This document shows, in pieces, positions 12,692-49,317 of a DNA stretch of 64,000 bases. Both the position numbers and the translations under genes were made by a program. The notes under the pieces are model-generated. The model ran no database searches. It was not told where the DNA came from and worked only from the letters and a program-made list of their open reading frames with translations. Every line of letters starts with the position of its first letter. Position 1 is the first letter of the stretch. This DNA comes from Bosea sp. AS-1 (lineage in GTDB: Bacteria > Pseudomonadota > Alphaproteobacteria > Rhizobiales > Beijerinckiaceae). The stretch spans positions 211,001-275,000 of the forward strand of contig NZ_CP022372.1 in NCBI RefSeq assembly GCF_002220095.1. The letters are read 5' to 3'.

Positions 12692-13942
12692 ATGATGGCC
12701 ATTGCGCCGGATGGAAGCACGCGCATCGTCATTGCCGGCGGCGGCATCGCCGGCCTGAGCCTGGCGCTCGCGTTGAAACAGGCTCTCGGGGCGGCTTTCT
12801 CGATCGTCCTCGCCGATCCGACGGTGAACGCGGTGCCGAAGGCCGACAACCGTGCCTATGCGGTGGCCGCCGGGGCTCGCGCCATGCTTGAGACGCTCGG
12901 TGTCTGGGATGCGGTTTCCGACAAGGCGCAGGCTATGACGGAAATGGTCATCTCCGACAGCCGGACCAACGACGCGGTCCGGCCAATCTTCCTGACCTTC
13001 GACGGCGAGGTCGAGCCCGGCCAGCCCTTCGCCCATATGGTCGAGAACGGTGCGCTCGTGGTCGAGCTGAAGGCGGCCTGCCAACTGGCCGGGGTCGAGC
13101 TGCGGCCGGTCGGCGTCCGCCGTTTCCGTGTCGAGGACGAGGATGTCGAGGTCGTCTTCGCGGATGGCGTGCGCGAGCGCGCTGCGCTGCTCGTCGCGGC
13201 CGATGGTGCTCGCTCGAAGCTGCGCGATCAGGCGGGTATCGGCTGGGTCGGTTGGGGGTACCGGCAGTCGGGCATCGTCGCGACAATCGGGCATGAACGG
13301 CCTCATCATGGCCGCGCCGTCGAGCATTTTCTGCCCGCGGGCCCCTTTGCGATCCTGCCTCTGGCGGATGGCGGCAGGCTCGGCCACCGCTCCTCGATCG
13401 TCTGGACGGAGCGGACCGAGAACGTCGAGCCCCTGCTCTCGCTGGACGCAGAGGACATTCTGACCGAGATCGAGGCGCGCTTCGGGCTCGAGCTTGGCGA
13501 GATCGCCCTGGAAAGTCCGGTGAGCGCGCACCCGCTGGGCTTCGGCGTGGCGCGGCGCTTCGTCGACTACCGCTTCGCACTGCTCGGCGATGCCGCCCAC
13601 CTCATCCACCCGATCGCGGGGCAGGGGCTCAATCTCGGCCTGAAAGACGTTGCGGCATTGGCGGAGGCGATCGTCGATGCGGCCCGGCTCGGGCTCGACC
13701 CCGGTGCGCTCGACGTGCTGGAGGGCTACGAGAAGGCCCGCCGCTTCGATACCGTCGCCATGGGCGCGGTAACGGACGGGCTCAACCGGCTGTTCTCGAA
13801 CGATGCGACGCCGCTCAGGCTGGCCCGCGACCTCGGATTGGGAATGGTCGACCGGCTGCCTGGGCTGAAGCGCTTCTTCATCCGCGAAGCGGCCGGTGTC
13901 GCCGGCGCCCCGCCGCGTCTGCTCAGGGGCGAAACGCTTTAG
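12692..13942 (+). CDS. UbiH/UbiF/COQ6 family FAD-dependent hydroxylase
   Basis: Flavoprotein monooxygenase (416 aa) of ubiquinone ring hydroxylation. The FAD dinucleotide motif is IVIAGGGIAGLSLAL at residues 12-26, DG follows in LLVAADGARSKLR, and the FAD ribityl motif is LLGDAAHLIHPIAGQGLNLGLKDVAAL near 300. A strong GGGGAG precedes the tandem ATGATG start. Alphaproteobacteria use several paralogues (UbiH, UbiF, UbiL, UbiM) with overlapping positions, so the exact hydroxylation site cannot be assigned. Confidence 0.9.
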   Translation: MMAIAPDGSTRIVIAGGGIAGLSLALALKQALGAAFSIVLADPTVNAVPKADNRAYAVAAGARAMLETLGVWDAVSDKAQAMTEMVISDSRTNDAVRPIFLTFDGEVEPGQPFAHMVENGALVVELKAACQLAGVELRPVGVRRFRVEDEDVEVVFADGVRERAALLVAADGARSKLRDQAGIGWVGWGYRQSGIVATIGHERPHHGRAVEHFLPAGPFAILPLADGGRLGHRSSIVWTERTENVEPLLSLDAEDILTEIEARFGLELGEIALESPVSAHPLGFGVARRFVDYRFALLGDAAHLIHPIAGQGLNLGLKDVAALAEAIVDAARLGLDPGALDVLEGYEKARRFDTVAMGAVTDGLNRLFSNDATPLRLARDLGLGMVDRLPGLKRFFIREAAGVAGAPPRLLRGETL

Positions 13943-13950
13943 CATCCTGC

Positions 13951-13973
13951 CGTCATGGTCGGGCTTGACCCGA
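13951..13973. repeat. REP-like short palindromic element
   Basis: Begins CGTCATGG and continues with the hairpin TCGGG-CTTGA-CCCGA just after the hydroxylase stop codon. A related element starts with the same eight bases near 49469. The pattern resembles dispersed palindromes common in Rhizobiales intergenic spaces, and it may also help end the upstream transcript. Confidence 0.35.
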
Positions 13974-14048
13974 GCAAGACGAACATCGGCAAACGCATCT
14001 CAAGATTCTAGGGACGCCGTAGCGCGGCGCCTACAAACGGCTTTCGCT

Positions 14049-14246
14049 TCAGTCCTCCAGCGGCCGTGCCTCTTCCGGCAGCATGATCGGGATGCCGTCG
14101 CGGATCGGATAGGCGAGCTTGGCGGCCCGGCTGATCAGCTCCTGCTTTGCCGCGTCATACTCCAGCGTGCTCTTGGTCAGAGGGCAGACCAGGATCTCGA
14201 GCAGCTTCGGGTCGATGCGCGTGGCGGTGTCGGTCTCGTTCGTCAT
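14049..14246 (-). CDS. Trm112 family protein
   Basis: A 65-residue zinc-ribbon-like small protein: [22 protein letters not shown]...[21 protein letters not shown]. This is the bacterial Trm112/YcaR form, which often keeps only one of the CPxC cysteine pairs, as here (a single Cys in VCPLTK). Bacterial members are thought to chaperone or activate partner enzymes such as methyltransferases; the partner is unknown here. It lies 10 bp downstream of the glutamate dehydrogenase gene on the same strand. Confidence 0.9.
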
Positions 14247-14256
14247 AGGGGTTCCT

Positions 14257-17200
14257 TCAGTTCTTGCGCGGCAGGTCGGCCAGCATGCCGGCCGCGACCA
14301 TCAGCTTCGGCAGGGTCAGGCCGGAGGCCGCGATGGCGTTGACCGTGCTGCGGATGCGCTCGGCATCGCTACCGCGTTCAGCCAGCCAGCTTTCGAGCGA
14401 GCCTTTGCCGGCGTCCGAAGCGGCGATCTCCTGCGTGATCTGCGCATGGGCGTCGTCCAGCGTCTCCAGCGCCCTTTCCCGGGCCAGGCGCTCGTAGTCG
14501 TCCGTCGCCGGCACCGCCGCGGCAGCCGCCTTGAGGCTGGCGAGACCGAAGAAGGCATCGACCCCGAAGTGGATTCGGGCGACGTCGCCGATGTGGCGCT
14601 TGCTGCGCTCGGCGATGTCGACGATGTCAGTCGCTTCAGCGAGCGACGGCAGGCTGGCGACGCGGGTCGCGAGCGCTTCCGGCACGCCCTCCGAGGTCAG
14701 CACCGCGATGCGGGCGAGCCGCGCCTGGGCAGCCGTTTCCGGCAGCAATGCGTTGAGCTCGGCCGAGAGATCGGCGACACCCTTGGCATAATGCGCGATG
14801 GTCTGCTCGATCGTGCCTGGCTTGGCCGCACCGCGGCGCAGGAACCAGCCCATGCGGTCAATGACGAGCTCCTGTGCGGCAGCGTAGAGCCCGAGCTGAG
14901 TCTTGCCGGGTATCGTCGCGTCGAGCGCGTCGATCTCGCTGTTGAGGCCGATGAGGTCGAAGGAATCGCGTGCGACCGCATAGGCGGCGGCGATGGCCGG
15001 GACCTCCGAGCGGGTCAGCGCGGCCAGCACCGGCACCAGCGCCGGGCCGCCGCGATTGACGATGGCATTGGCAAGCTGGGTCGCGACGATCTCGCGGCGC
15101 AACCTGTGGCTGGCAATCGCCTCGGGATAGGCGTCACGTAGAGCCTTCGGGAAATAGCGGACGAGCTCGGTCGCGAGGTAGGGGTCGTCCGGCACCGACG
15201 ATTCGAGCAGCGCGTCGTGCAGCGCGAGCTTGGCATAGGCCAGCAACACGGCGAGCTCCGGTCGCGTCAGTCCCTCGCCACGCTTCTCGCGTTCGGCAAG
15301 CTGGGCGTCGCTCGGCAGGAATTCGACGCCGCGGTCGAGCCGACCCTCCTGCTCAAGTGTCTGCATCAGGAAGCGCAGTCCCGGCGTCGCCGCGACGCCC
15401 TTGGCCTCGGTGAGCGAGAGCGCCAGTGTCTGGAGATAGTTGTTGCGCAGGACGAGCAGGCCTACCTCGTCGGTCATCGCCGCAAGCAGCTCGTTGCGCT
15501 TGTCCTCCTTGAGGCGGCCATCCTTCACCAGGCCGGCCAACGCGATCTTGATGTTGACCTCGACGTCGGAGGTGTTGACGCCGGCCGAGTTGTCGATGGC
15601 GTCGGTGTTGAGCTTGACACCCTTGCGCGCCGCCTCGATGCGCCCGCGCTGGGTCACGCCGAGATTGGCGCCCTCGCCGATGACGCGGGCGCGGACGTCG
15701 TTGCCGGCAATGCGGATCGCGTCGTTGGCGCGGTCGCCGACCTGAGCATCGCTCTCGTCGGCGGCACGGATATAGGTCCCGATGCCGCCGAACCAGAGCA
15801 GATCGACACGCGCTTTCAGGATCGCGGTCATCAGTTCGGGCGGCGAGACCTCCTTCTTGTCGATATCGAGCAGGGCACGGATTTCCGCTGAAAGCGGGAT
15901 GCTCTTGGCCTGGCGCGAGAAGATGCCGCCACCCTTCGAGATCAGGCTCTTGTCGTAGTCGCCCCAGGACGAGCGCGGCAGGGCGAAGAGGCGCTGACGC
16001 TCGGCCAGCGACTTCGTCGGATCGGGATCGGGATCGAGGAAGATGTCGCGATGGTCGAAGGCGGCGACGAGCTTGATCGCTGGCGAGAGCAGCATGCCGT
16101 TGCCGAAGACGTCGCCCGACATGTCGCCGACGCCGGCGACGGTGAAGGGCGTGGTCTGGATATCGACATCGACCTCGCGGAAGTGACGCTTCACCGCCTC
16201 CCAGGCGCCGCGGGCGGTGATGCCCATGCCCTTGTGGTCGTAGCCTTGCGAGCCGCCCGACGCGAAGGCGTCGCCGAGCCAGTGGTGCTTCTCCAGCGAG
16301 ATCGCGTTGGCGGTGTCGGAGAAGGTCGCAGTGCCCTTGTCGGCGGCAACGACGAGATAGGGGTCGTCGCCATCATGGCGCACCGTGTCCGGCGGCGGCA
16401 CGAGGGTCTCACCATCGAGATTGTCGGTGAGCTCGAGCAGGTTGCGGATGAAGATGCGGTAGCTCTCGGTGCCTTCGGCCAGCCAGGCGGCGCGGTCGGA
16501 GGCCGGCGGCAGCTGCTTGGGAACGAAGCCGCCCTTGGCGCCGACCGGGACGATGACCGCGTTCTTGACCTGTTGCGCCTTGACGAGGCCGAGCACCTCG
16601 GTGCGGAAATCCTGCGGCCGGTCGGACCAGCGCAGGCCGCCGCGCGCGACCTTGCCGAAGCGCAGATGGATGCCCTCGACACGCGGCGAATAGACGAAGA
16701 TCTCGTAGAGCGGGCGCGGCAGCGGCAGGCCGTCGACCTGGGCGCAGTCGAACTTGAAGGTGATGGTTTCGCGCGGCAGGCCGTCCGGACCGATCTGGAA
16801 GAAATTGGTGCGCAGCGCCGCGTCGACCAGATTGACGAGGCGCCGCAGGATGCGGTCCTCGTCCAGGCTGGTGACGGCGTCGAGCGCTTCCTCGATCGCG
16901 GCGCGCTTCTGCGCCATGCGCTGCTCGCGCTCCTCCGGCTTGATGCGCGGATCGAACTTGGCGGTGAAATAGCCGACGAGGTCGGAGGCGATACCGGAAT
17001 GGCGCGTCAGCGCATCGGCGATATAGCCCTGCGCATAGGGCGCGCCGACCTGGCGGAGATAGCGGCCAAAAGCCCGCAGCAGCGCGGCCTCACGCCAGGC
17101 GAGCCCGGCTGCGAGCACGAGCTGGTCGAAACGGTCGGATTCGGCCAACCCCCGGAATTGCGCCATCAGCGCCGCTTCGATGGTCGGGTCGAGGTGCTCG

Positions 17201-43088: not shown

Positions 43089-44039
43089 TCACGTTGCCTT
43101 GAAAACAGGCGTCGTCGCGCGGCCGTGATCGAACTCGGCCAGGGCGGCCGCCGATATCATCTTCGGCCGCCAGCGGCGGTGCATCCAGAGCCACTGCTCG
43201 GGATACTCGCGCACCCAGCCCTCCACCACGGCCGTCATCATTGCCATGGCGCCCTGGACGTCGATCTCGCCATTGGCATCGCGCGGCAGATCGAGCGGCG
43301 GGGTGAGCTCCAGCCGGAAGCGGTGGTTCGGCAGACGGATGACCCGCACGCCATGAACCGGGCATTCGAAGCGCTTGGCGAACTTGCCCATGATCGGGTT
43401 GGTCAGCGCCGGGCGGCCGAAGAACGGCACCACGACGCCGCGGGTGAAATGCTGGTCAATCAGCATGCCGAGATGGCCGCCATTCTCCAGCACGCCCTGC
43501 ATGGCGAAGGCTGCGCCCTGTTTCGCGGCGGCAAGCCCACCCATCGCGCCGGATCGGATCTCGTGGACGACGGCGGCGATTGCGGGATCGTTGGGAGCCC
43601 GGAAGACCGCGGTGGTTTCCAGATCATAGGTCTGCGCGCAGATCGCCGGCAGTTCCCAGTTGGCGAGATGGGTCGAGAAGATCAGGCCTGGCTTGCCGTC
43701 ATCCTTGAGCGCGATGAAATGCTCGATGCCCTTGACCTCGACGCGCGAGGGCTTGTCGGGGTTGTGGTAGTCATAATCGAAGAGCGCCTTCAGGTTGGCG
43801 TATTCGCCGGCGACGCGGCCAAGGTTTTCCCAGGCACCGCGCGCGATGCGCCTGACCTCCGCCTCGTCCTTTTCGGGAAAGGCTGCGCGGATATTGGCGA
43901 GCGCCACGCGGTTGACCGGGATCAGCGGGCTCGCGGTCCGGAGAAGCCAGCCGCCGAGATCGCTGGCGCGCTCGGGGCCCAGCAGGCGCAGAAAACCGAA
44001 CAGGGCGCGGATCACGCCGATCATCACCGCCGCGCCCAT
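43089..44039 (-). CDS. lpxXL: Lipid A VLCFA acyltransferase, LpxXL-like (HtrB/LpxL family)
   Basis: Inner-membrane lysophospholipid-type acyltransferase, about 316 aa. The family HX4E-type motif is STHLANWE near residue 130, and DQHFTRGVVVPFFGRPALTN and EYPEQWLWMHRRWRP near the end are diagnostic. In rhizobia this enzyme transfers the very long acyl chain from AcpXL to lipid A. It is the last gene of the XL cluster. The start is uncertain: ATG 44039 lacks a good ribosome site, and TTG 44069 or a TTG further upstream are alternatives. Confidence 0.88.
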   Translation of the reverse strand: MGAAVMIGVIRALFGFLRLLGPERASDLGGWLLRTASPLIPVNRVALANIRAAFPEKDEAEVRRIARGAWENLGRVAGEYANLKALFDYDYHNPDKPSRVEVKGIEHFIALKDDGKPGLIFSTHLANWELPAICAQTYDLETTAVFRAPNDPAIAAVVHEIRSGAMGGLAAAKQGAAFAMQGVLENGGHLGMLIDQHFTRGVVVPFFGRPALTNPIMGKFAKRFECPVHGVRVIRLPNHRFRLELTPPLDLPRDANGEIDVQGAMAMMTAVVEGWVREYPEQWLWMHRRWRPKMISAAALAEFDHGRATTPVFKAT

Positions 44040-44179
44040 CCGCGCGGCGATCGCCTTCAATCGTCTCAAGGTCGGTCCAGCCTCAATCGCCCGTGCCGAG
44101 AGCAAGACCGGGCCTGAAACGGGCGATCTGGGGCAGGAATGCGCCGGCGTCAAGTCTCTCGCCAGAGCGGGTCGATCGC

Positions 44180-45202
44180 TCAGAAGGTGATGACGACCTT
44201 GCCGAAGACCTGCCGACCCTCGATACGGGCGAGGCCCTTCTCGAAATCGGCCAGCGGGAAGACCGAATCGATCACCGGCTTCATGCCGCCGGCCATCTTC
44301 TCCAGCGATTGCGCGATATTCTCGATGCGGCAGCCGAAGGAGCCGGTGATCCGGTATTGCTGCTGGAAGAGCTGCATCAGGTTGATCGTGGCCGAGGGGC
44401 CCGAGGTCGCGCCGCAGGTGACGAGCCGGCCGCCACGCTTCAGGCAGAGCAGCGAGCCGTTCCAGGTATCGGCGCCGACATGCTCGAAGACGACATCGAC
44501 GCCCTTGCGGCCGGTCAGCTTGCGCACGACGCCCTCGAAGCGGTCCTCCCGGTAGTTGATGACGTGATCGGCGCCGAGGGCCTTGGCCTTGGCGCCCTTC
44601 TCGTCGTCGCCGACGGTCGTATAAACCGTGCAGCCGATCGCCTTGGCCATCAGGATCGCGGCCGTGCCGATGCCGGAGCCGCCGGCATGGACCAGCACGG
44701 ATTCGCCGGGCTCCAGCTTCGCATTGTCGAAGAGCATGTGCTGGACCGTGCCGAAACCGATCGGCGCGCAGGCGGCATCCTCGAAGGAGACCCCTTTTGG
44801 TGCCTTGATCGTCAGGCGGGCGGGGCGGTTCAGCACCTCGCGAGCGAAGCCGTCGATATGGAAGCCCATGATGCCGGCGACGTTCTCGCAGAGATTGTCC
44901 CGACCCTCGCGACAGGCCTTGCACTGGCCACAGGTGTCGGCGCCATAGGCGGTGACGACGTCGCCAGGTGCGAAGCCGGTCACGCCCTCGCCGACGCAGA
45001 CGATCTCGCCTGCGGCTTCGACACCGGCCGCCTGCGGCATCTTGCGCTTGGCGAAGGCCATGCCGCGGAAACCCCAGAGGTCGAGATAGTTCAGTCCGAC
45101 TGCCTTGATGCGGATCTGCACTTCGCCCGGAGCGGGCGGCGGCGGCGGCTCGATCTCTTCCAGGCGCAGGTCGCGATCGCCGTGGAGCTGGAGGGAACGC
45201 AT
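44180..45202 (-). CDS. Zinc-containing MDR oxidoreductase of the VLCFA cluster (probable enoyl reductase)
   Basis: Medium-chain dehydrogenase (340 aa) with the structural-zinc Cys cluster CGQCKACREGRDNLC and Rossmann motif LVHAGGSGIGTAAILMAKAIGC. In Rhizobium the equivalent gene (fabXL/adh2XL) sits in the acpXL operon and is thought to reduce the enoyl intermediate in 28-carbon chain synthesis. Here it lies 28 bp after the ketoreductase gene. The enoyl-reductase role is inferred from context; alcohol dehydrogenase activity is the annotation alternative. Confidence 0.87.
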   Translation of the reverse strand: MRSLQLHGDRDLRLEEIEPPPPPAPGEVQIRIKAVGLNYLDLWGFRGMAFAKRKMPQAAGVEAAGEIVCVGEGVTGFAPGDVVTAYGADTCGQCKACREGRDNLCENVAGIMGFHIDGFAREVLNRPARLTIKAPKGVSFEDAACAPIGFGTVQHMLFDNAKLEPGESVLVHAGGSGIGTAAILMAKAIGCTVYTTVGDDEKGAKAKALGADHVINYREDRFEGVVRKLTGRKGVDVVFEHVGADTWNGSLLCLKRGGRLVTCGATSGPSATINLMQLFQQQYRITGSFGCRIENIAQSLEKMAGGMKPVIDSVFPLADFEKGLARIEGRQVFGKVVITF

Positions 45203-45230
45203 CGGATATCGACCTTTCAGAACAAACTTG

Positions 45231-45977
45231 TCAGCGATGCACGCCGAGCTGGGCGGTCAGGCCGCCGTCGATCGGCAGCACGGTACCGCTGATATAGGCG
45301 GCAGGCTCGCTCATCAGGAAAGCGGCGACGCCGGCGACTTCCTCCGGCTTGGCGAACCGGCCAGCGGGAATCTGCGCCTGCATCTTGTCGCGATAGGCGG
45401 CATAGGGCGCCATCATGTCGGTGTCGACGAAGCCGGGCGCGATGATGTTGACCGTGACGCCGCGCTTCCCGGTCTCGACCGCGAGCGTCTTGGCATAGGA
45501 GATCAGCGCGCCCTTGGAGGCGGCGTAGGCGGCATTGCCGGCGTTGCCGCGCAGCGCCGCGACCGAGCCGATCGCGACGATCCGACCGGCCCGGGCACGG
45601 ATCATGTTGCGCATCAGGCTTTTGGCGAGGCGGGTGAAGGCCCAGAAATTGACCTGCATCGCCGCCTCGGCCTTGTCTTGGTCCATCATCGCTGCCAGCG
45701 AGTCATAGGGCTGGCCGGCGTTGTGAACGAGGCCGAAGTAGCTCTCGCCCTCGCGCGCCTCGCAGAAGGTTTCGAGCGCCGCCTTGTCGGAGAGGTCGAG
45801 CGGCAGCGCCGTGACCGTACGGCCAGGATGGGCGGCTGCGATCTCCCCAGCCAGCGCCTTCGCCTGCTCGGCGGAGGAGCGGAAGGTGAAATCGACATCG
45901 TGGCCGGCCGCGGCGAGCGCGCGCACGATCGCGGCGCCGACACCTTTGGCGCCACCCGTCACGAGAATCTTGGTCAT
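45231..45977 (-). CDS. FabG-like 3-oxoacyl-ACP reductase embedded in the VLCFA cluster
   Basis: SDR of 248 aa with cofactor motif ILVTGGAKGVGAAIVRAL and HNAG. The catalytic triad is complete: Ser138 (IGSVAALRG), Tyr151 and Lys155 (NAAYAASKGAL). PGFVDTDMM and GTVLPIDGGLTAQ fit the FabG group. ATG 45977 overlaps the fabF1 stop (ATGA), with GGAGG upstream. It supplies the ketoreduction step missing from the classical rhizobial XL gene list, which makes the operon nearly self-sufficient (inference). Confidence 0.9.
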   Translation of the reverse strand: MTKILVTGGAKGVGAAIVRALAAAGHDVDFTFRSSAEQAKALAGEIAAAHPGRTVTALPLDLSDKAALETFCEAREGESYFGLVHNAGQPYDSLAAMMDQDKAEAAMQVNFWAFTRLAKSLMRNMIRARAGRIVAIGSVAALRGNAGNAAYAASKGALISYAKTLAVETGKRGVTVNIIAPGFVDTDMMAPYAAYRDKMQAQIPAGRFAKPEEVAGVAAFLMSEPAAYISGTVLPIDGGLTAQLGVHR

Positions 45978-47254
45978 GCGGCCTCCGGGGGCGCCGTCAG
46001 CACGAGGCAAGTGTTCTGGCCGCCGAAGCCGAAGGAGTTGGAGAGGACCGTCCTCACCTTCGCCTTGCGTGCCTCGTTCGGCACGACGTCGATCGCGATG
46101 GCGGGGTCCGGGTTCGCATAGTTGATCGTCGGCGGGATCGTGCCGTTGGCGATGGTCAGGAAGGAGATCACCGCCTCGACCGCGCCGGCTGCCGTCAGCG
46201 TGTGGCCGATCATCGACTTGTTCGAGGAGATCGGCAGTTTGGCCATGCGCTCGCCGAAGACGGCGGCGCAGCTCATCGCCTCCATCTTGTCGTTCTCGGG
46301 CGTCGAGGTGCCGTGGGCGTTGATGTAGTCGACATCGTCCGGCGTCAGCCCGGCATCGGCGAGTGCGTCCTGCATGGCGAGGATCGCCGGCTTGCCGTCC
46401 GGGCTCGAGCGGGTGCGGTGGAAGCCGTCGCCGCGCTCGCCGCAGCCGGCGACGATGCCGAGGATGGTCGCGCCGCGCGCCAGCGCATGATCGTAGTCCT
46501 CCAGCACAAGGGCGCCAGCGCCCTCGCCCATGACGAAGCCGTCACGGTTCTTCGAGAACGGCTTGGCGGCACCTTCCGGTGGATCGTTCTGGGTTGAGAG
46601 GGCCGAAAGCAGCGAAAAGCGGATCAGCGCCTCGGCATGGATCGAGCCGTCGGTGCCGATGCAGAGCGCGGCCTCGGTGTCGCCACGGCGGATCGCCTCG
46701 ACGCCCATCTGGATCGCCGTCGCGCCCGAGGAGCAGGCGGTCGAGAGCGAGATCGGCGAACCCTTGGTGCCGAAACGGTCGGCGATATGGTCGGCGACGC
46801 CGCCAAAGACGAAAAGCTCGTGCATCGCCCGGTACTTGCCGGTTTCGGCGGCGCGCAGCAGCCCGTCATAGTCGACATCACCCTCGATGGTCTGGGCCAT
46901 CTCCTGCTTCTGCGGCCATTCCATCTCGACCGGCGGGACGGCCATGAAGAGCTCACCGGGGAAATCGCCGGAGGTTCCGAGGCCGCTCTGGGCGACAGCC
47001 TCCTCGGCCGCCAGGGTCGCGAGCTTTTCCGAGAGCTGCGGGGCGGTGAACGGCTCGTCGAAGAGGAAATCGACGGTGCCGCCGATCGTGGTGCGCAGGC
47101 CCTCGGTCGGGAAGCGTTCGATGCGGTGGATGCCGGACTGGCCGGCCGTCAGCGCCTGCCAGTTTGTTTCCTTGCCCTGGCCGAGCGAGGTGACGACGCC
47201 GAGGCCGGTGACGGCGACGAGCGGGCGGCCCTTGGCATCACGATGCGTGGTCAT
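45974..47254 (-). CDS. fabF1XL: Beta-ketoacyl-ACP synthase FabF1XL (catalytic partner)
   Basis: Condensing enzyme, 426 aa, with all catalytic residues: Cys174 (STACSSGATA), His314 (NAHGTSTPEND), Lys346 and His351 (NKSMIGHTLTAAG). It elongates the AcpXL-bound chain with malonyl-ACP units. It lies 12 bp after fabF2XL and overlaps the reductase start. The neighbouring paralogue lacks these residues, so this subunit probably carries all the chemistry of a heterodimer. Confidence 0.93.
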   Translation of the reverse strand: MTTHRDAKGRPLVAVTGLGVVTSLGQGKETNWQALTAGQSGIHRIERFPTEGLRTTIGGTVDFLFDEPFTAPQLSEKLATLAAEEAVAQSGLGTSGDFPGELFMAVPPVEMEWPQKQEMAQTIEGDVDYDGLLRAAETGKYRAMHELFVFGGVADHIADRFGTKGSPISLSTACSSGATAIQMGVEAIRRGDTEAALCIGTDGSIHAEALIRFSLLSALSTQNDPPEGAAKPFSKNRDGFVMGEGAGALVLEDYDHALARGATILGIVAGCGERGDGFHRTRSSPDGKPAILAMQDALADAGLTPDDVDYINAHGTSTPENDKMEAMSCAAVFGERMAKLPISSNKSMIGHTLTAAGAVEAVISFLTIANGTIPPTINYANPDPAIAIDVVPNEARKAKVRTVLSNSFGFGGQNTCLVLTAPPEAA

Positions 47255-47266
47255 GGTTTCAACCTC

Positions 47267-48415
47267 TCACGCTTGGACCAGATGGGCGGCGCCTTCGCCG
47301 CGCCAGTGACCGGCGCCGGTGACGATCGCTTCCTTCACCTGCCCGGCTGACAGGGCGATTGCCGCCAGGGCGACCGAGATCGGGAAGGCTGCCTCGACGC
47401 CATGGCCGACGAGATCGCCGGCGGCGACGCGCCTGGCAGCAGGAGCCGCCGCCTTCAAGGCAGCGGCTTCTTCAGCCGTGATGCCCGCGCAGCCGGTCGC
47501 GGCAGAAATGGCGAGGCTGTCAGGGCCGATGGAACCGAAAGCGTCGACGAGCTTCGTCAAGGCTGCTTCGACCGTACCGGGCGCGCGGCGACTGCGGGCG
47601 GCTCCCGCATGGCTCAGCTTGGCGTAAACCTTGGCACCACGTGCCGCGGCACGCTCGGCCGATTCGAGGACGAGGAAGGCGCCCGCGCTGCCGGTGATCA
47701 GCCCTGGGGCATCGTCCCGCTCGAACACGGGAGCGAAGTCATTCCGGCGCAGATAGCCACCGAGCTCGAAGAGCAGCAGCATGTCGCGACGCTCGGCGTT
47801 GTAGGCACCGCCGACGAGCATCAGGTCGGATTGGCCCGAGGCGATGCGGGCATGGGCCGTGCGGATGGCGTCGACGCCGGCCTGCTCTTCGCCCATGAAG
47901 GTGCGCGACGGGCCCGTGACACCGTGAACGATGGCGATATTGCCGGCGAGCAGATTGGAAAGCTGGGCGAGAAAGAGTGTGGGCCTGAGATCGCCCATCA
48001 AGTGCTCGTTGAGATAGGTGCCGGGCTCGTTGGCGCCGCGCAATCCTGTAAGAATGGCGGAATCGACAGCATGGTCGCGTTCCCCGCCACCGGCGGCAAC
48101 GATCACCTGCAGCGCGCTCTTGGCCTCGGCATCCTCCTTGATCCCGGCGGAGTCGAGGGCGAGGCCGGCCGCATAGACGCCGAGGCGCTGCCAGGGCTCC
48201 ATCTGGCGCTGGTCGGACTTCTTCGGGATCTGCCGGTCCAGCTCAAGCGCGGCGAGCGGGTGGAGCGGATAGGGCTTGAAGCTCTCGGTATCGACGACCG
48301 GCGGCCCGCCCGCCTTCAGCGCGGCGGCGTGGGCCTCGATGCCTTCGCCGAGGCTGGAGGCGATGCCGATTCCGGTGATGACCACGTCACGACGGTTCGT
48401 CGTCATATCGCTCAT
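47267..48415 (-). CDS. fabF2XL: Beta-ketoacyl-ACP synthase homologue FabF2XL lacking the active-site cysteine
   Basis: Thiolase-fold protein (382 aa) clearly related to FabF along its length (GVTGPSRTFMGEEQAGVDAIRTAHARIASGQSDLMLVGG). Ungapped alignment puts Glu177 of GEEQAG where the nucleophilic Cys should be. The HGTxT motif is replaced by ATGCAG and the Lys is missing; only the second His (VGHGVEAAF) remains. It cannot condense alone and most resembles a chain-length factor to FabF1XL. Its start overlaps the fabZXL stop. Confidence 0.9.
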   Translation of the reverse strand: MSDMTTNRRDVVITGIGIASSLGEGIEAHAAALKAGGPPVVDTESFKPYPLHPLAALELDRQIPKKSDQRQMEPWQRLGVYAAGLALDSAGIKEDAEAKSALQVIVAAGGGERDHAVDSAILTGLRGANEPGTYLNEHLMGDLRPTLFLAQLSNLLAGNIAIVHGVTGPSRTFMGEEQAGVDAIRTAHARIASGQSDLMLVGGAYNAERRDMLLLFELGGYLRRNDFAPVFERDDAPGLITGSAGAFLVLESAERAAARGAKVYAKLSHAGAARSRRAPGTVEAALTKLVDAFGSIGPDSLAISAATGCAGITAEEAAALKAAAPAARRVAAGDLVGHGVEAAFPISVALAAIALSAGQVKEAIVTGAGHWRGEGAAHLVQA

Positions 48416-48876
48416 GGAGCAGGCTCCGGCTTCAGGCCGATGGCTTCGATGCGGCTCTGCATGAGCGCGCGCATATCGGCGGGGAAAGGCATCAGGCGGA
48501 AGCGCAATTCAGCGTCGCAGATCGGCTTGCCGTTGCTGGTCAGTTTCGCCCTGGTGGCGGCATAGCCCGACCCCTCGATGACGAGCTCGGCGCTGGCTTC
48601 CAGTTCCGTCTCGGGCTCGACGAAGGTGCGGAAGCGCGCCTTGTCGACCGTCATCAGGAAGGGCATCTGGCTGAGGCCATTCAGGCCGAGCAGCAGATAA
48701 CCGGAGGCCTGCGCCATGGTCTCGGTCAGCAGCACGCCCGGAACGAGCGGGTGCCCGGGGAAATGCCCTTCGAAGACCGGGCTTTCGCTCGGGACGGTAG
48801 AGCGCGTGACGATGCGCTTCTGCGACGGATCGAAGGAAACGACCCTGTCGATCATGTCGAAATATTCGAGGCGCAT
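48412..48876 (-). CDS. fabZXL: 3-hydroxyacyl-ACP dehydratase FabZXL
   Basis: Single-hotdog dehydratase of 154 aa. The catalytic pair is present: His38 in EGHFPGHPLVPG and Glu52 in LLTETMAQASG. It removes water from the 3-hydroxyacyl-AcpXL intermediate. The longer C-terminus (ELRFRLMPFPADMRALMQSRIEAIG) distinguishes it from housekeeping FabZ. Second gene of the XL operon, 159 bp after acpXL, with a hairpin in the gap. Confidence 0.92.
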   Translation of the reverse strand: MRLEYFDMIDRVVSFDPSQKRIVTRSTVPSESPVFEGHFPGHPLVPGVLLTETMAQASGYLLLGLNGLSQMPFLMTVDKARFRTFVEPETELEASAELVIEGSGYAATRAKLTSNGKPICDAELRFRLMPFPADMRALMQSRIEAIGLKPEPAP

Positions 48877-48922
48877 GCGATCCCTGACTCAGATGGGCGC
48901 CGGAACGACGCAAAGCCGCGGC

Positions 48923-48940
48923 GCGGATCGGAGGATCCGC
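48923..48940. other. Hairpin between acpXL and fabZXL
   Basis: Perfect 7-bp stem GCGGATC (48923-48929) and GATCCGC (48934-48940) with loop GGAG in the 159-bp acpXL-fabZXL gap, without a U-run. It may be a processing or partial-attenuation hairpin that lets acpXL be expressed above the enzyme genes (inference). Confidence 0.35.
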
Positions 48941-49035
48941 ATCGCGGGCTCAATGCTCTATCGGGAGCGGCGCGCCGGCTCAAGTGCGGCGGCGGCCGAT
49001 CGCGCCGGAGACTTGGGCCGGGCTCGGGCCCGCGC

Positions 49036-49317
49036 TCAAGCCTTCTTGGCGGCGACCAGGTCGTCGATGCGCTTGCAGAGGTTCTCGAGCACGAAATACT
49101 GCTCGGCCGGAGCCTTGCCCTCGTTGACCTCCTGCGTCCACTGCTCGAGCGGCAGCTTGATGCCGAAAGCCTTGTCGATCGCGAAGGCGATATCGAGGAA
49201 GGCGAGCGAGTCGATGCCGAGATCGTCGATGGCGTGGCTCTGCGGCGTGATCTTCTCACGCGGAATATCGCAGGTTTCGGAAATGATGCCGGCGACCGTC
49301 TCGAACGTGGCGGACAT
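49036..49317 (-). CDS. acpXL: Acyl carrier protein AcpXL
   Basis: Specialised acyl carrier protein (93 aa) for very-long-chain fatty acids of rhizobial lipid A. The phosphopantetheine attachment Ser37 lies in [22 protein letters not shown]. The sequence follows the AcpXL pattern ([25 protein letters not shown]..., ending [17 protein letters not shown]), not housekeeping AcpP. It heads the seven-gene minus-strand cluster ending with lpxXL. The 208 bp upstream to acnA presumably hold its promoter. Confidence 0.96.

Follow-up and report, generated by a model that had tools for sequence, protein, structure and literature searches.

A ketosynthase homologue without its catalytic cysteine, FabF2XL, as a probable partner of FabF1XL in the synthesis of very long lipid A acyl chains

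Results

The XL cluster of Bosea sp. AS-1

The window, by which we mean the whole stretch of 64,000 nucleotides that was analysed, derives from an assembly of 5.84 Mb in three contigs. On its minus strand, at 43089-49317, it carries a cluster in the order acpXL-fabZXL-fabF2XL-fabF1XL-SDR-adh-lpxXL, with the following features.

49036..49317, minus strand: acpXL, 93 aa, the acyl carrier protein that serves the XL pathway (NCBIfam NF005079, 173 bits, cut-off 83)
48412..48876, minus strand: fabZXL, 3-hydroxyacyl-ACP dehydratase-like, 154 aa (FabA-like Pfam PF07977; FabZ profiles below their cut-offs)
47267..48415, minus strand: fabF2XL, putative pseudo-ketosynthase of 382 aa in which the Cys, the first His and the Lys are lacking (NCBIfam NF005084, 535 bits, cut-off 320; Pfam N-terminal domain only; catalytic columns)
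47885..47893, minus strand: codons for G175-E176-E177 of fabF2XL, GEE at the place where active ketosynthases have TAC (coordinates counted on the sequence)
47255..47266, minus strand: in-frame 12-base spacer from fabF2XL to fabF1XL (on read-through, one stop precedes fabF1XL, the TGA of fabF2XL)
45974..47254, minus strand: fabF1XL, active-type ketosynthase with Cys174/His314/Lys346/His351, 426 aa (NCBIfam NF005076, 745 bits, cut-off 629)
45231..46010, minus strand: short-chain dehydrogenase (SDR), FabG-like ketoreductase, overlapping the end of fabF1XL (FabG profile NF004200, 208 bits, below its cut-off of 273; PF13561)
44180..45202, minus strand: zinc-type dehydrogenase/quinone reductase-like protein (adh XL; PF00107, PF08240)
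43089..44117, minus strand: lpxXL, lipid A acyltransferase attaching the very long chain (NCBIfam NF005120, 435 bits, cut-off 273)

The dehydrogenase at 44180..45202 is perhaps the enoyl reductase of the cluster. The extra FabG-like SDR at 45231-46010 of the window is also found in several relatives (for example loci L047-L050) and is absent from the S. meliloti locus L241. Among the matches listed, the closest named relatives of FabF2XL are from Bosea.

The protein under study exceeds the curated cut-off of NF005084 (PRK06519), an equivalog model named beta-ketoacyl-ACP synthase, and the S. meliloti FabF2XL scores 618 bits against the same model. In the accessible part of one study, fabF1XL and fabF2XL are both named 3-oxoacyl-ACP synthase II (PMC11901934); in excerpts of another they are termed fatty acid elongation proteins (PMC5613085).

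Catalytic residues in the FabF2XL and FabF1XL families

Our FabF2XL set comprised 230 hits above 150 bits (225 distinct) and our FabF1XL set 216 hits above 450 bits (210 distinct). One FabF2XL fragment below the threshold (L073, 45.7 bits) and partial FabF1XL ends were not counted; all other rows were kept. At the level of the order, 397 genomes were drawn from a larger group, of which 124 lay over the cut-off, and these supplied 30 loci and then 96 regions. Named genomes contributed the best 80 of at least 593 matching stretches. A draw from the class gave 15 of 289 genomes over the cut-off, including the Bosea genome itself and one other of its family, and the locus of S. meliloti strain Ak57 was added to the sample.

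In MAFFT alignments, Glu177 of FabF2XL shares a column with Cys174 of FabF1XL and with the nucleophilic Cys of E. coli FabF and FabB, which bears out the placement proposed in the initial annotation. Across the 225 distinct FabF2XL sequences this column holds Glu in 224 and Asp in one, and Cys in none; the preceding residue, 176, is Glu in all 225. The S. meliloti protein likewise reads GEE. The same annotation had described the first catalytic His and the Lys as missing, and this is true of the whole family: neither residue occurs in its column in any of the 225 sequences (2 gaps in each column). In the window protein, the column of the first His is occupied by Ala or Thr, depending on which of two alignments, one column apart, is taken, with His in neither; the Lys column holds Gly.

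The second His was said to remain. That holds for the window protein and for 192 of the 225 sequences; in the rest of the family it is lost (N 14, Q 6, T 4, S 3, Y 2, A 2, gap 2). An intact Cys/His/His triad was found in 0 of 225 orthologues. FabF2XL thus does not have the Cys-His-Lys-His site of FabF (3-oxoacyl-ACP synthase II). By comparison, the 210 distinct FabF1XL sequences retain His, Lys and His without exception and Cys in 209, the remaining one reading X, so that the catalytic residues attributed to the neighbouring gene are confirmed for its family.

The residue following Glu177, Gln178 in the window, had been singled out beside the Glu. It is present, but the position is variable across the family (S 59, A 50, Q 26, M 24, L 23 and others among 225) and the residue therefore carries no information. 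Its reading as the Gln typical of chain-length factors (CLFs) was rejected on this ground. A shift of one residue that would place this Gln at the Cys site was also discarded, as it would need a gap demanded by neither flank.

Taken together, the residue counts support the view that FabF2XL would be unable to carry out FabF-type condensation by itself, and that the loss of the site is conserved across the family.

Selection on fabF2XL

Between the window gene and six near relatives, dN/dS was 0.09-0.23 for FabF2XL and 0.08-0.16 for FabF1XL. The former values place fabF2XL under purifying selection and rule out a pseudogene or damaged copy; one second copy elsewhere (L073) is nevertheless split in two frames. 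That copy, at 13445-14565 of its locus, belongs to a second cluster, as does a FabF2XL in L080 (2588-3574) that is shortened at its C-terminus to 329 aa. Measured against these six genomes, fabF2XL has a synonymous divergence some 1.4 to 2.3 times that of the neighbouring fabF1XL (window 45974-48415).

Linkage, duplication and distribution

FabF2XL and FabF1XL exceed their cut-offs in the identical 124 of the 397 sampled genomes of the order. FabF1XL lies directly downstream for 216 of the 230 FabF2XL hits, a count in which some loci are repeats of one genome, and 208 distinct full pairs were recovered. The 14 non-adjacent hits consist of three contig ends (L131, L174, L224), L105, which comes from a fragmented genome (G043) with FabF1XL on two other contigs, and ten Methylobacterium loci. 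In these ten (L184, L186, L181, L189, L187, L188, L177, L167, L198 and L210, from M. fujisawaense, M. mesophilicum, M. longum, M. pseudosasicola, M. gregans and others), FabF1XL does not stand beside FabF2XL and is absent from the stretch retrieved around it; each of the genomes has one FabF1XL over the cut-off elsewhere, making 11 of 11 with one control genome.

Where the pathway is doubled, both genes have been copied together (G262, G274, G287, G372, G361, G010 and G087). A second cluster lies nearby in L073, L074 and L080. In four loci (L079, L081, L087 and L090, from G287, G372, G274 and G262), tandem pairs with adh between them stand in one cluster, in the order acpXL-fabZ-F2-F1-adh-F2-F1; such tandem pairs perhaps represent two elongation ranges.

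In a draw from the phylum, 16 of 150 genomes exceeded the FabF2XL cut-off, all of them Alphaproteobacteria. The draw did not single out known producers of such chains, for example Legionella; among its 109 genomes from outside the class, FabF2XL was found in none.

Phylogeny

In a tree of 54 rows, FabF2XL forms one clade on a long stem and falls outside the active FabF rows. FabF1XL groups with ApeO, the aryl polyene ketosynthase (KS), and the KS half of a Streptomyces fusion protein (96/89). After removal of the FabF2XL, CLF and HR2 rows, the split of FabF1XL, ApeO and HR3 from the rest stands at 88/90; the grouping depends on long branches, of which ApeO is one. A constraint placing FabF1XL with the FabF-type rows as one clade was not rejected (AU p 0.116). 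FabF2XL and the CLFs are not joined in the tree, and a one-clade constraint on them was likewise not rejected (AU p 0.389); nor, at 0.05, was a sister relationship of FabF1XL and FabF2XL (AU p 0.078).

Segment conservation, predicted structure and coevolution

The two families differ in which parts they conserve. FabF1XL is 9% identical to E. coli FabF over FabF 100-150, where FabF-type rows reach 46%. Among the other six segments, identity is 39-51% in four and 14% and 29% in two that flank this one. FabF 100-150 is a segment that builds the interface and pocket. The same stretch shows 57% identity within the FabF2XL family; within the FabF1XL family it is also the least conserved part (27%). 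Loose constraint would therefore explain its divergence in FabF1XL as well as a change of interface would. The best-kept part of FabF2XL is its match to FabF 60-199 (55-57% within the family), while its C-terminal half has 12-14% identity to E. coli FabF and 29-39% within the family.

The 12-base spacer keeps the frame, so fabF2XL and fabF1XL could be folded as one chain with the TGA read as Gly. AlphaFold2 gave this read-through chain of 813 residues a pLDDT of 90.7 and a pTM of 0.92, values obtained with a short artificial linker and no negative control. For a chain of two equal halves, so high a pTM indicates that the position of one half relative to the other is confidently predicted. Ketosynthases dimerise anyway, and it is possible that the pairing in the model is driven by the fold. 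Stretches of at least three residues with values under 50 are confined to 1-5 and the linker, 384-392. FabF2XL alone was predicted with a pLDDT of 90.5 and a pTM of 0.89. Its residues 111-120 and 141-150 score 68 and 57 alone against 88 and 75 in the pair, the two predictions resting on different alignments (44 and 30 rows). In both models E177 starts a helix, 177-192, and Cys174 of FabF1XL (561 in the joined chain) falls within the opening turn of helix 560-577. A VIA-align of the joined model covered the FabF1XL half alone and is therefore silent on the dimer arrangement.

Coevolution was analysed by Gaussian-type direct coupling on 209 paired rows (effective number 107, which is small) and 567 variable columns, with interface-like segments set from the FabF structure. 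Coupled pairs between FabF2XL and FabF1XL were not enriched in these segments: the top 50, 100, 200 and 500 pairs contained 0, 3, 5 and 12, against 1.6, 3.1, 6.2 and 15.6 expected, and with a second correction 0, 2, 4 and 11. Coevolution thus gives no support for a contact between the two proteins.

Comparison with chain-length factors and other paired ketosynthases

FabF/KAS II is a homodimer with two active sites; FabF2XL differs from it in lacking the catalytic site. The nearer likeness is to the KS-CLF pairs of aromatic polyketide synthases (actinorhodin, PDB 1tqy), in which, as in the XL pair, adjoining genes encode an active KS and a KS without Cys. The products differ, the aromatic type II systems making a poly-beta-ketone and the XL pathway a reduced fatty chain. 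The initial annotation had read FabF2XL as an inactive KS of the chain-length-factor type. The dead site and the inheritance shared with FabF1XL agree with this reading; by profile and by motif, FabF2XL falls outside the known CLF families.

We compared five CLFs (actinorhodin and four from Streptomyces plasmid records) with 13 FabF2XL rows. The CLFs read EQAGG (two), EQAAG, EGAGG and DQAGG around the Cys position; they have Asp in place of the first His and Arg in place of the second, and they retain the Lys. The 13 FabF2XL rows read GEExxG; the first His is replaced by Thr, Ser or Cys and the Lys by Gly, Ala, Ser or Thr, and the second His is kept in 10 of 13 (otherwise Gln, Thr or Tyr). FabF2XL and four of the five CLFs thus share a Glu just before the Cys position, the fifth CLF having Asp there, whereas at the Cys position itself the CLFs have Gln or Gly and FabF2XL Glu. 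The CLF active-site pattern (xEQAGG-like, Asp, Lys, Arg) was absent from all 13 rows, and the different residue pattern means that the site was lost by another route.

The profiles lead to a similar result. At an E-value of 0.01, 30 of 30 FabF2XL proteins matched PF00109 alone, and in none of the 30 was there a match of the known CLF kinds (PF13723, or PF00109 plus PF02801). The one aromatic CLF scanned matched both PF00109 and PF02801, whereas FabF2XL has no C-terminal domain match. The one aryl polyene CLF scanned, ApeC, matched PF13723 and is about half the size (240 aa in E. coli CFT073), while FabF2XL is of full size. The aryl polyene CLF is described, in the accessible text of PMC8358021, as being without nearly the whole second domain. 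The C-terminal domain is thus nearly gone from the CLF of the ApeO-ApeC pair and decayed in FabF2XL. In other respects the aryl polyene KS-CLF resembles the XL system, being Gram-negative and having dedicated ACPs, KR and DH, and ApeO lies near FabF1XL in the tree. A third pair, AmcF-AmcG of cispentacin biosynthesis, joins an active KS to a partner without functional motifs and is reported, in the available portion of the paper, as a demonstrated heterodimer (PMC10698177). AmcG is described there as a cyclisation factor for one C2 step, whereas the XL pair would iterate. The best reading is that FabF2XL may work like a CLF but, on motif and profile, stands outside the known CLF families.

Two Streptomyces plasmid proteins of about 790 aa (L247 5317-7680 and L248 5322-7688) join a KS to a Cys-less KS half (TTGHAAG in L247); this is a natural KS-CLF-like fusion. 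The same reducing clusters also encode ketosynthases without the active-site Cys (L247 4001-5290 and L248 4001-5287; GTADSG) in which His, Lys and His are kept.

Discussion

In this report, we propose that FabF2XL, a ketosynthase homologue without catalytic activity, and the active ketosynthase FabF1XL together form one condensing enzyme dedicated to AcpXL, and we regard this as probable. A KS/pseudo-KS heterodimer is the best account because of the dead site, the strict partnership, the conserved interface-side half and the need for the protein in vivo. The confident model of the joined chain, the divergence of FabF1XL at FabF 100-150 and its grouping with ApeO and the KS half of the Streptomyces fusion also speak for it, each with the reservations given above; the coevolution result and the absence of CLF profile matches speak against it. 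On the need in vivo, the accessible part of PMC11901934 is informative: in an A. fabrum C58 fabF2XL insertion mutant the very long chain is missing from lipid A altogether, and plasmid-borne fabF2XL alone, in trans, partly restores that chain. Restoration by fabF2XL points to a need for the dead subunit itself and not just to a polar effect on fabF1XL, although its partial extent leaves room. In Bradyrhizobium ORS278, mutation of either fabF1XL or fabF2XL was unobtainable, according to the excerpts of PMC5613085.

In the proposed mechanism, the Claisen condensations would take place at the Cys-His-Lys-His site of FabF1XL, and FabF2XL would complete both the dimer interface and the acyl pocket, in the manner of a CLF in type II polyketide synthases. 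The presence of FabF2XL would most likely allow the chain to grow beyond C18 to C26-C30. That the two proteins form a physical heterodimer seems to us quite probable. That FabF2XL controls the length of the long chains, or their access, we suggest with more reserve and place just on the doubtful side; it is the weaker half of the claim, since, as AmcF-AmcG illustrates in the available portion of PMC10698177, a partner that lacks the motifs may do something other than set length.

One could go further and picture the XL cluster as a type II synthase that is complete in itself, iterative and fully reducing. The chain bound to FabF1XL would cross the interface between the subunits and enter the pseudo-active site of FabF2XL, and the conserved Glu-Glu pair there would hold its (omega-1)-hydroxyl end, so measuring C26-C30. 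If the starter were 3-hydroxybutyryl, no hydroxylase would be required to account for the (omega-1)-hydroxyl, and the even lengths (25-OH C26, 27-OH C28, 29-OH C30) would likewise result. We consider it highly speculative and improbable.

An alternative to the dead partner is that FabF2XL has a non-condensing catalysis of its own through the Glu-Glu pair, for example malonyl-ACP decarboxylation for priming or an acid-base step for its partner. Gln at the Cys position permits decarboxylation in KSQ domains. Further, the conservation of E176 (225/225) and E177 (224/225) is stricter than would befit a mere scar, and the five classical CLFs are more variable there (EQ, EQ, EQ, EG, DQ). However, Glu is not the Gln of KSQ, and ketosynthase decarboxylation requires the His pair; the first His and the Lys are gone from every FabF2XL, while the five CLFs keep the Lys. 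We thus hold a catalytic role of this kind to be unlikely.

Another possibility is that FabF2XL serves as a homodimeric or monomeric scaffold for AcpXL, FabZXL or LpxXL and shares no dimer with FabF1XL. The unenriched coevolution would suit such a role, and operon linkage alone fits any function in the XL pathway. Yet the two genes duplicate as a pair, the predicted model of the pair is confident, and the interface-type segment has diverged in FabF1XL; both genes have also been retained after moving apart, though any shared pathway would fit that. A separate scaffold therefore appears distinctly unlikely to us. Finally, an ordinary active FabF whose active site was misaligned would agree with the names given by NF005084 (beta-ketoacyl-ACP synthase) and in the accessible part of PMC11901934 (3-oxoacyl-ACP synthase II), but is virtually untenable given a Cys column without Cys in 225 of 225 sequences, the missing His and Lys at two further sites, and models that set E177 at the first turn of the helix bearing the nucleophile in active enzymes.

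In the literature searched, a scope that excluded most subscription papers, we found no description of a dead-partner or CLF-like role for FabF2XL, and no report of a homodimeric, active FabF2XL enzyme. NF005084 probably gives this Cys-less family a wrong enzyme name, which has spread through databases.

In nitrogen-fixing symbionts, as in several intracellular bacteria, the outer membrane is supported by lipid A with its very long chain. If one of the two fabF genes in the pathway of this chain encodes a dead partner of FabF1XL, then mutants, reconstitutions and annotations such as NF005084 need rereading. Chain length would become a question that can be tested on two purified proteins, and a saturated, structural fatty acid would join polyketides and polyenes as products of KS/pseudo-KS pairing.
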